This document shows, one piece after another, positions 7,782-11,189 of a stretch of 64,000 nt of DNA. Origin of the DNA: Sorangium aterium (GTDB taxonomy: Bacteria > Myxococcota_A > Polyangia > Polyangiales > Polyangiaceae); NCBI RefSeq assembly GCF_028368935.1, contig NZ_JAQNDK010000001.1:2232001-2296000 (forward strand), written 5' to 3'. The translations under genes were made by a program, and so were the position numbers. The notes beneath the pieces are model-generated. The model ran no database searches, was not told the origin of the DNA, and saw only the letters and a program-made list of their open reading frames with translations. The stretch's first letter is position 1, and every line of letters begins with the position of its first letter.

Positions 7782-9713
7782 ATGCTCGGAACCTCGAACC
7801 TCGCAAAATCATTCGGTGATCGGACCCTCTTCGAGGGCGTCTCGCTCAAGCTGAACGCCGGGTCCCGCTACGGCCTGGTGGGCGCGAACGGCTCGGGGAA
7901 GACCACCTTCCTGAAGATCGTGGCGGGCGACGAGCCCGCGAGCGACGGGAGCGTCAGCTTCCCGAAGGACGCCCGCGTGGGTGTGCTCCGGCAGGACCGG
8001 TTCCTCAGCGACGACCAGATCATCCTGGATCTCGCGATGATGGGTGATCGCGTCGTGTGGGAGGCGCTCGTCGAGTCGCGGCAGCTCGCGGAGGACGGCG
8101 GCGACGCCGGCCGGGTGGCCGACCTGGAGGATCGCATCCGCGCCCACGACGGGTACACGCTGGAGGCGCGCGCGAGCGCCGTCCTCGAGGGGCTCGGCAT
8201 CCCCGTGGAGGCGCACCGGAGGCCGCTCTCCACGCTCTCGGGCGGCTTCAAGCTGCGCGTGCTGCTCGCGCAGGTGCTCCTCGGCGGCGCGGACGTGCTG
8301 CTGCTCGACGAGCCCACGAACCACCTCGACATCCTCTCCATCCGCTGGCTCGAGAAGTTCCTCGCCGGCTACAAGGGCTGCGCGCTCGTCATCTCCCACG
8401 ACCAGCGCTTCCTCGACAACGTCGCCACGCACATCCTCGACGTCGACTACGAGACCATCACGCTCTACACGGGCAACTACGCCGCGTTCGTCGTCGAAAA
8501 GCAGGCGATCCGCGAGCGCAAGCAGGCCGAGATCGCCCGCGCCGAGAAGATCATCGCGGACAAGCGCGCGTTCGTGGAGCGGTTCGGCGCGAAGGCGACG
8601 AAGGCGCGCCAGGCGCAGAGCCGGCTCAAGCAGATCGAGAAGATCGAGGTCGAGGAGCTCGCCGACACGTCGCGGCGTTCACCGGTGTTCCGGTTCGCGA
8701 TCCAGAGGCCGAGCGGGCGCGACGTGCTCGAGGCGAAGGGGATCTCGAAATCGTACGGCGCGAAGCAGGTGCTGCGCGACGTCTCGCTGTCGGTGCGGCG
8801 GGGCGAGCGGGTCGCGGTGATCGGGCCGAACGGGCTCGGCAAATCGACCCTGCTCAAGATCCTCGTGGGCCGGCTCGCGGCCGACGCCGGCGGCGCGTCG
8901 TGGGGGCACGAGGCCCGCGTCGGCTACTTCGCGCAGGATCACCGCGAGCTGCTCGTCGACGGGTCGATGACGCCGCTCTCCTTCCTGTGGGCGGCGTGCC
9001 CCGACGAGTCGCCGAGCTACGTCCGCGGCCAGCTCGGCAAGGCGCTGTTCTCTGGCAACGACGTCGAGAAGAGCGTGGGCTCGCTCTCCGGCGGCGAGGC
9101 GGCGCGGCTCATCTTCTGCCGGATCATCGTCGAGCGGCCCAACGTGCTCGTGCTCGACGAGCCGACCAACCACCTCGATCTCGAGGCGATCCAGGGGCTC
9201 GTCGAGGGGCTCAAGGCGTTCGAGGGGACGGTGCTCTTCGTCTCGCACGATCGCTATTTCGTGTCCGAGCTGGCGACGCGCATCCTCGAGGTCACGCCGA
9301 GCGGGCCGCGCGATTTCCCAGGCACCTACGAGGAGTACCTGGCCGGCTGCGGCGACGATCACCTCGACGCCGACACGGTGGTGCTCAAGGCGAAGCGCGA
9401 CCACCAGAAGGCGGCCGCGCCGGCCGAGGCGGGCGGCTCCTGGGAGGAGCAGAAGCGGCGTCGCAACCGGCAGAAGGAGCTGCCCGCGCGGCGCGACAAG
9501 GTGCTCGCGTCCATCGAGGCGGCCGAGGCGCGAAAGAAGGCGATCCACGACCTCTACTGCAGCGACGGCTTCTTCGAGCGCACCGGGCAGGCCGAGATCG
9601 CGGCGCTCCAGGCCGAGGACGAGGCGCTCGGGCCGCGCATCGACGCGCTCATGGCGGAGTGGGAGCAGATCGAGCAGGAGATCGCGGAGCTCGGGGCGGT
9701 CCAGGCGCAGTGA
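7782..9713 (+). CDS. ABC-F family ATPase (ribosome-associated type)
   Basis: A 643-residue soluble protein with two ABC ATPase domains and no membrane segment. The first domain has Walker A GANGSGKTT, signature LSGGFKLR and Walker B VLLLDEPTNHLD; the second has GPNGLGKST, LSGGEAARLIF and VLVLDEPTNHLD. Between them lies a charged linker helix region (AEKIIADKRAFVERFGAKAT...QSRLKQIEKIE), the P-site-tRNA-interaction motif of the ABC-F class. The last 90 residues form a coiled coil ending EQIEQEIAELGAVQAQ. Known ABC-F proteins act on stalled or antibiotic-bound ribosomes. It stands alone between a hairpin terminator upstream and the palindrome-rich patch downstream. Confidence 0.93.
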   Translation: MLGTSNLAKSFGDRTLFEGVSLKLNAGSRYGLVGANGSGKTTFLKIVAGDEPASDGSVSFPKDARVGVLRQDRFLSDDQIILDLAMMGDRVVWEALVESRQLAEDGGDAGRVADLEDRIRAHDGYTLEARASAVLEGLGIPVEAHRRPLSTLSGGFKLRVLLAQVLLGGADVLLLDEPTNHLDILSIRWLEKFLAGYKGCALVISHDQRFLDNVATHILDVDYETITLYTGNYAAFVVEKQAIRERKQAEIARAEKIIADKRAFVERFGAKATKARQAQSRLKQIEKIEVEELADTSRRSPVFRFAIQRPSGRDVLEAKGISKSYGAKQVLRDVSLSVRRGERVAVIGPNGLGKSTLLKILVGRLAADAGGASWGHEARVGYFAQDHRELLVDGSMTPLSFLWAACPDESPSYVRGQLGKALFSGNDVEKSVGSLSGGEAARLIFCRIIVERPNVLVLDEPTNHLDLEAIQGLVEGLKAFEGTVLFVSHDRYFVSELATRILEVTPSGPRDFPGTYEEYLAGCGDDHLDADTVVLKAKRDHQKAAAPAEAGGSWEEQKRRRNRQKELPARRDKVLASIEAAEARKKAIHDLYCSDGFFERTGQAEIAALQAEDEALGPRIDALMAEWEQIEQEIAELGAVQAQ

Positions 9714-9731
9714 GGTCCTGCCGGGTTGCCC

Positions 9732-9883
9732 GGCCCCGGGAGAGGGGGTCCGCCGCGCGGCGCGGGGGCCCCGCCGAACTCGCCTGAGACGATGATCCTC
9801 CGGCTTCGCCGGAGGATCATCGTCTCAGGCTCAAACATCGGCCCATCCCCCGCGCCGCGCGGCGGACCCCCTCTCCCGGGGCC
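9732..9883. repeat. Nested palindrome 1 (two perfect inverted repeats)
   Basis: Outer arms 9732-9768 and 9847-9883 are perfect 37-bp inverted repeats. Inside them a second perfect 23-bp stem (9782-9804 with 9808-9830) closes on a TTC triloop. The element lies 18 bp after the ABC-F stop, in the gap between convergent genes. It could be a bidirectional terminator, a REP/MITE-like mobile repeat or a protein-binding site. No open frame or transposase accompanies it. Confidence 0.85.
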
Positions 9884-9915
9884 TACCGGTGCTCTGTTGA
9901 TGACCCGCTCAGCAC

Positions 9916-9979
9916 GCGGCGGCTCCCCTGGGCGACGCGAGCGGCGGCTCCCCTTGGCGACGCGAGCGGCGGCTCACCC
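9916..9979. repeat. 25-bp tandem direct repeat (2.5 copies)
   Basis: Copies at 9916-9940 and 9941-9965 differ at one base, and a 14-base partial third copy (one mismatch) runs to 9979. It links nested palindrome 1 to nested palindrome 2. The copies begin GCGGCGGCTC and end GACGCGA. No function is apparent. Confidence 0.8.
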
Positions 9980-10084
9980 GCACAGGAGACGGGCCCAGAT
10001 CGGCGTTTTCGGCGCGGAAGCGCACTCAAGTGCGCTGAGCACCGAAAACGTCGAGGTGGGCCCGTATCCGAAGCGGGTGAGCCG
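9970..10084. repeat. Nested palindrome 2 (four-tier interrupted hairpin)
   Basis: Four concentric inverted repeats fold into one long hairpin: 9970-9981 with 10073-10084 (12 bp), 9989-9997 with 10057-10065 (9 bp), 10004-10012 with 10042-10050 (9 bp), and 10019-10026 with 10029-10036 (8 bp). The outer arm ends 4 bp from the xylH stop codon at 10089. The tiers are separated by internal loops of similar size on both sides, which looks like a structured RNA or a repeat-family element rather than a simple terminator. Confidence 0.8.
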
Positions 10085-10088
10085 TCGC

Positions 10089-11189
10089 TCAGTGACTTCT
10101 TGTCTTGCGGCTGGCCATGTCGATGCCGACGGCCAGGATGAGGATGATGCCCTTGATGATCGGCTGCCAGAAGCTCTCCGTGTTCATCAGGCTCATGCCG
10201 TTGTCGAGCGAGGCCATGACGAGCGCGCCGAGCAGCGCGCCCCAGATGGTGCCCTGACCGCCGAGGAGCGACGTGCCGCCGATCACGGCGGCCGCGATCG
10301 CGTCGAGCTCCATCATCCGGCCGGCGTCCGAGGTCGCGGAGCCGACGCGGGCGGTGAGCACCACGCCCGCGATGCCCGCCATCACGCCCATCAGCGTGAA
10401 CACGGCGATGAGGTGACGATCGATGCTGATGCCGGAGTAGAAGGCCGCCTCTCGGTTGCCGCCGATCGCGTAGAGGTGCCGCCCGAACGTCGTGTGCTTC
10501 GCGAGCACCGTGAACGCGGTCGCGAGCACGAGCACGACCAGCACGGGGAACGGGACTCCCTCGTAGGAGTTCATCAGGGCGGCGAACGCGACGGAGAACA
10601 CGGCGAGCCCGATCCACGGGTAGCGCGCCGAGCCGGTCGCGCGCGCCGCCTTGTACAGCAGCCCGACGCAGAGGACGCCAGCGCCCGCCCAGCCGAGGGC
10701 GTGCGGCACGTACGCCTGGCCCACGAACAGGTAAGGACGTGCCGGCGAGATGGACACACCGCCCGTCAAGCCGAGCATGGATCCCTGGAAGATGAGCATC
10801 CCGCCGAGCGTGACGATGAAGGGGGGAATCCGCAGCCGCGCCACGAGGGTGCCCTGCACGAAGCCAAGGACGGCCCCGAGCAGGAGCGGCAGGACGAAGG
10901 CGGCCGGCAGCGGCCAGCCGAGGCTCACGTAGATCATCGCCGATGAGGCGCCGAGCAGACCGGCGAGCGCGCCCACCGAGAGATCGATCTGCCCCGAGAC
11001 GATGACCATCACCATGCCGATGGCCAGGATCGAGGTCACCGACATCTGCCGCGCGAGGAGCGTCAGGTTGCGCGGCGTCACGAACGTCCCATCCGTCGTG
11101 ATGGAGAAGGCAATCCAGATCGCGATGAGCGAGCCCACCATCGAGAGGGCGCGCCAGGGGATACGCACGCGAAGCTTGGCCTCGCTCAT
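10089..11189 (-). CDS. xylH: Xylose-type sugar ABC transporter permease
   Basis: A 366-residue inner-membrane permease of the BPD_transp_2 (ribose/xylose) family, with a short cytoplasmic N-terminus and many hydrophobic helices starting at SMVGSLIAIWIAF. Family landmarks are GMVMVIVSGQIDLSVGALAGL near residue 60, PPFIVTLGGMLIFQGS, TTFGRHLYAIGGNREAAFYSGI, and AVIGGTSLLGGQGTIWGALLG near the end. The order and length match XylH. Its ATG overlaps the xylG stop codon by three bases (ATGA at 11186-11189), so the two are translationally coupled. It would form the channel for a sugar imported with the ATPase XylG; the exact sugar is inferred from family similarity. Confidence 0.9.
   Translation of the reverse strand: MSEAKLRVRIPWRALSMVGSLIAIWIAFSITTDGTFVTPRNLTLLARQMSVTSILAIGMVMVIVSGQIDLSVGALAGLLGASSAMIYVSLGWPLPAAFVLPLLLGAVLGFVQGTLVARLRIPPFIVTLGGMLIFQGSMLGLTGGVSISPARPYLFVGQAYVPHALGWAGAGVLCVGLLYKAARATGSARYPWIGLAVFSVAFAALMNSYEGVPFPVLVVLVLATAFTVLAKHTTFGRHLYAIGGNREAAFYSGISIDRHLIAVFTLMGVMAGIAGVVLTARVGSATSDAGRMMELDAIAAAVIGGTSLLGGQGTIWGALLGALVMASLDNGMSLMNTESFWQPIIKGIILILAVGIDMASRKTRSH

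Follow-up and report, generated by a model that had tools for sequence, protein, structure and literature searches.

A Sorangium-specific family of giant, recently mobile palindromes with conserved loops and freely varying stems

The hairpin-forming MITEs of bacteria (YPAL, RU/ERIC, Correia) are non-coding, dispersed elements of 100-170 bp that often lie near stop codons. Their sequences are conserved among copies, and some of the families leave target duplications. Most GTAG REPs are found downstream of coding regions and in spaces where the neighbouring genes are convergent or co-directional (PMC3733652). GTAG is the tag that RAYT transposases recognize; the enzymes act on one folded strand, and those of E. 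coli require mismatches in the stem (PMC8266576). Separately, it has long been asked how the two arms of a long hairpin stay matched, given that single mutations should break pairs first. We describe here a family of long palindromes in Sorangium that touches on each of these systems.

The palindrome and its family

We analysed a 64-kb stretch of the Sorangium aterium genome (the window) in which an earlier note, made from the letters alone, had pointed out a large nested palindrome between convergent genes. The description proved exact: the palindrome occupies the spacer between an ABC-F-type ATPase gene on the + strand (7782-9713, stop codon at 9711-9713) and a convergent permease gene on the - strand (stop near 10089), its outer arms (9732-9768 and 9847-9883, + strand) are perfect reverse complements of 37 bp, and its inner hairpin (9782-9804 and 9808-9830, + strand) is a perfect 23-bp stem closed by the 3-base loop TTC (9805-9807). 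The sequences of both stems differ from copy to copy. Between them lies a conserved internal loop with a left side of CCCCGCCGAACTC (9769-9781) and a right side of TCAAACATCGGCCCAT (9831-9846), in which GCCGA (9773-9777) pairs with TCGGC (9838-9842); once this small helix is counted, the arms reach 46 nt at 91%. The hairpin starts 18 nt after the ATPase stop codon, which is overlapped by the 20-nt 5' lead (9712-9731, + strand, GAGGTCCTGCCGGGTTGCCC). Conservation of the lead is weak, the consensus GAGGTCTTGCCGAGCTGCCC being recognizable on visual inspection in about 40% of copies. At the other end, CTAC on the + strand (9883-9886) forms a foot that reads GTAG on the - strand, 5' of the hairpin, and is followed by the tail CGGTGCTCTG (9887-9896, + strand).

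This palindrome and a neighbour at 9964-10090 are the standout inverted repeats of the whole window, the other pairs listed being shorter and 71-86% complementary. The neighbour is a second, unrelated palindromic repeat; it belongs to a MITE-like family of 127 bp that occurs in this genome about 40 times at 91-97% identity. With arms that are just 83% complementary, it shows a pattern opposite to that of the palindrome studied here. A short tandem array with a 25-bp unit (GCGGCGGCTCCCCTGGGCGACGCGA) runs between the two palindromes at 9916-9978.

Searching the entire genome at the DNA level gave many loci that match the palindrome at 68-84% identity. The same approach located the element in all five other Sorangium genomes and gave at most tiny partial matches in relatives outside the genus. 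Using a covariance model of the element core built from 44 copies, and removing opposite-strand matches of one place, we counted 22 distinct copies in this S. aterium genome and 21, 22 and 18 in the other complete Sorangium genomes (G004, G003 and G001, respectively), with fewer in two fragmented assemblies. Across 183 genomes of the order, the model found essentially no copies outside Sorangium, the one marginal match having an E value of 8e-4. A scan of species genomes for the exact right-loop motif found it in Sorangium cellulosum records only. The earlier note had allowed for an unusual terminator present in a single copy, a reading that the 22 distinct copies in the same genome rule out.

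Intact copies fold into hairpins of ~150-170 bp that share one design. The outer stem (about 36-48 bp; 37 bp here) and the inner stem (about 16-28 bp) are variable in sequence, and between them is a conserved asymmetric internal loop (left side CCGAACTCG, right side CTCARACATCGG) whose two sides are joined by a helix of 4-5 bp. The copies also have feet in common (GCCCGGCC ... GGCCTAC), beyond which the terminal arms are not shared. The CTAC/GTAG foot, with GTAG on the - strand, is present in 48 of the 61 copies, and pairing begins with its last G. A search of this genome for short versions carrying these feet found none. No Rfam family reached its gathering score, and the sub-threshold matches were of the microRNA type only, as is typical of any long hairpin.

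Some loci depart from the common design. At five of them (L010, L014, L020, L057 and L058), extra tandem half-elements, each made of one arm, left or right, and its foot, adjoin full copies, which suggests slippage or partial copying. At three orthologues, in other species, of another site (L137, L138 and L140, orthologous to L019), the hairpins are short and have similar feet, and two other genomes hold the full element there; the short forms probably arose by deletion of the centre.

Mobility and placement behind stop codons

Two pairs of copies at unrelated loci (L075/L076 in G004; L056/L064 in G003) each match at 98% identity, which stops near the feet. For 12 copies of this genome we located the orthologous upstream genes in other Sorangium genomes, and most of those sites are without the element. 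At the L075 site it is absent in four genomes, three of which have a much shorter spacer, and the filled site has additional bases flanking the element on both sides. Both the nearly identical pairs and the sites that lack the element show that it is dispersed and recently mobile. Neither comparison revealed a precise target motif.

The earlier note had proposed a REP/MITE-like repeat family whose further copies might carry target-site duplications. The dispersed family stands, with its many copies, its presence in every Sorangium genome and its recent mobility. The classical MITE is not supported: we saw no target-site duplication at the near-identical copies or in comparisons with empty sites, including the L075 site. 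A MITE moved by a DDE transposase, with terminal inverted repeats and a target-site duplication, is disfavoured and very improbable. It would suit an element that is short, non-coding, palindromic, dispersed and mobile, and a separate MITE-like family adjoins the copy studied here, but the arms provide no terminal inverted repeats common to the copies past the feet, and the duplications are missing.

Placement relative to genes is strongly directional. In 45 of the 48 cases that a codon-model call of the flanks resolved with confidence, the element and its upstream gene share a strand, and the upstream genes mostly end 0-120 nt ahead of it; downstream, 21 genes are convergent and 8 co-oriented (n = 29). 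Family-wide, T makes up 27% of the ten bases past CTAC against 12-16% from 20 nt on, so enriched a tail resembling that of a weak terminator. A simple terminator scan called no U-tract terminator at the element, which has some features of an intrinsic terminator, namely a G+C-rich hairpin past a stop codon and T enrichment, but no T tract. Serving, or being tolerated, as a 3' terminator hairpin is our best reading of this position.

Very large hairpins of different sequence also stand past stop codons at orthologous sites in other Sorangium genomes (L143, L134, L095 and L128), the one at L095 including a ACCACAGAG-type repeat. Sorangium seems rich in giant 3'-end hairpins.

Matching of the arms and the folded strand

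The stems of the 61 copies contain over 3,400 Watson-Crick pairs and are nearly free in sequence, many pair columns holding all four Watson-Crick pairs with scarcely any wobble intermediate. Column 40/74 of the inner stem is one such case (GC 16, CG 13, UA 11, AU 4), with no one-sided change. Covariation in the inner stem far exceeds that of shuffles and slid controls. At one orthologous site (G000 L012 and G004 L067), the gene flank is 96% identical and the stems differ by seven compensated changes plus one single change that repairs a C.A mismatch. Near-identical sister copies have single differences only. Further, terminal loops are found in both orientations (TTC/GAA, TCC/GGA and AGA/TCT), and the base of the inner stem exists in left/right mismatched, left/left and right/right forms. 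The same footprint is described for replication template switching (PMC8794818, PMC8604942), which probably acts on the Sorangium stems as well.

Mismatches confined to one arm are markedly asymmetric on the + strand: the 61 copies have 43 A.C and 2 G.T, counts in which the mismatch cells share ancestry, and the A.C mismatches are scattered over about ten stem positions. Since A.C on the + strand is a G.T wobble on the - strand, this indicates the latter as the strand that folds. At the base of the inner stem (columns 30-32), asymmetric copies have T.G or G.T positions of the G.U type on the + strand, so the 43:2 count holds for the remaining parts of the stems. Some of the mismatches recur at 9-10 bp from the loop, and these may reflect conservation instead of separate events. 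The - strand fold is the more stable in 57 of 61 copies with RNA parameters and in 59 of 61 with DNA parameters, and on this strand both sides of the internal loop form a tandem GA that adjoins the inner stem. From the mismatch asymmetry, the evidence points to the - strand as the single folding strand, the signal being alike for RNA and single-stranded DNA.

These stem data bear on three other accounts. If the element were a + strand 3'-UTR RNA, a terminator or stabilizer of the mRNA 3' end with stems maintained by ordinary compensatory selection, its same-strand position past stop codons and its T-enriched tail would be explained. We consider this unlikely: selection on RNA tolerates G.U, yet G.U is the rare class in the + strand stems (2 against 43 A.C), and the columns move among all four Watson-Crick types without wobble intermediates. 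Strand-biased mutation could instead yield the excess of A.C over G.T with no special folded strand, and loop positions likewise vary mainly between A and G on the + strand. The flanks, however, are not G-depleted, and their composition gives no hint of so large a strand bias in mutation. C to T bias linked to transcription or replication, moreover, should favour the opposite mismatch type for a co-oriented gene, and we give this account little credence.

The third account, a structured non-coding RNA transcribed from the - strand and spread as a repeat, would accommodate the wobble asymmetry, the better - strand fold, the tolerance of G.U and the conserved loop with its tandem GA. With a convergent downstream gene in 21 of 29 cases, transcription of the - strand is common. 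Such an RNA is nonetheless improbable, given that the region beyond the foot has no conserved promoter-like sequence, that 8 of 29 cases are without a gene reading in from the - strand side, that no Rfam family matches, and that the tight spacing is to the other, upstream gene. The + strand is favoured by the same-strand placement and the T-rich tail, the - strand by the wobble signal; we infer that the two can be joined in a single account.

RAYT-like genes, a proposed mechanism and comparison with known systems

The REP-associated transposase model NF047646 gave 4-10 matches per genome in all six genomes, at 42-67 bits and all under the curated cut-off of 80. An absence of RAYT genes, read first from the lack of any Pfam Y1_Tnp match over the cut-off in the Sorangium genomes, was overturned by this more specific model. 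One RAYT-like unit is present twice in this genome (L224 1264-2494 and L230 1265-2494), the two copies being 98% identical over about 1.23 kb with unrelated flanks; thus, RAYT-like units move in this genome. The left end of the unit is a strong hairpin in L224, and the same end has diverged in L230. The covariance model gave no significant match to the element beside the RAYT-like genes at 20 loci, so a link between the two is conjectural.

The explanation that we favour, at somewhat better than even chances, is a non-autonomous, genus-specific mobile palindrome, a giant REP-like element that folds as single-stranded DNA, has its arms matched by template switching and takes on a 3' hairpin role. 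It comprises three steps, given here in order of falling confidence. In the first, template switching during replication would copy one arm from the other, keeping the arms identical at the DNA level and also flipping the small terminal loop. In the second, the - strand, with its GTAG foot at the 5' side, its tolerance of G.T and its tandem GA, would be the one whose folding counts; it would most likely fold as single-stranded DNA and be recognized in trans by a RAYT-like HUH transposase. In the third, the + strand hairpin with its T-enriched tail would end or protect the transcript of the upstream gene, so that insertions at that place and in that orientation persist. A bolder and rather doubtful extension is that these giant nested palindromes with a GTAG foot form a new class, moving as folded single-stranded DNA, with only the loop and feet constrained and a stem of ~60 bp continually rewritten by template switching.

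With ~20 copies per genome in several genomes, all four Watson-Crick pairs and almost no wobble, template switching can be traced copy by copy, and the Sorangium family lends itself to testing how perfect hairpins are maintained in bacteria. REP-like movement would, if the mobility model is true, extend far past the usual 20-40 bp.

The family is real, recently mobile and specific to Sorangium. It behaves most like a REP yet lacks two defining REP features, the size and the association with a RAYT gene, and is a member of neither the REP nor the MITE families. Like GTAG REPs and REPINs, it has a strand-specific fold and, on one of its strands, GTAG at the 5' side of the hairpin (PMC3733652, PMC8266576; for RAYT, or TnpA-REP, systems see also PMC2817692 and PMC3116915). 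It shares with GTAG REPs an intergenic position 3' of coding regions with convergent or co-directional neighbours (PMC3733652), and with REPs that have RAYTs the presence of RAYT-like genes in the genomes and a lack of visible target duplication. It differs in its length (~150-170 bp against 20-40 bp), its copy number (~20 against the usual over 100), its nested two-stem fold with a conserved internal loop and hypervariable stems, the pairing of the last G of GTAG and the absence of a RAYT gene beside its copies. Its likeness to YPAL, RU/ERIC and Correia lies in size, non-coding nature, dispersal and folding of the entire element; unlike theirs, its arms vary freely and conservation is limited to the loop and feet. 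The Sorangium element resembles template-switch (quasipalindrome) hairpins (PMC8794818, PMC8604942) in its multi-base compensated changes, perfect arms and spacer inversion, and is set apart from them as a multi-copy mobile family with ~60 bp of stem in each copy.
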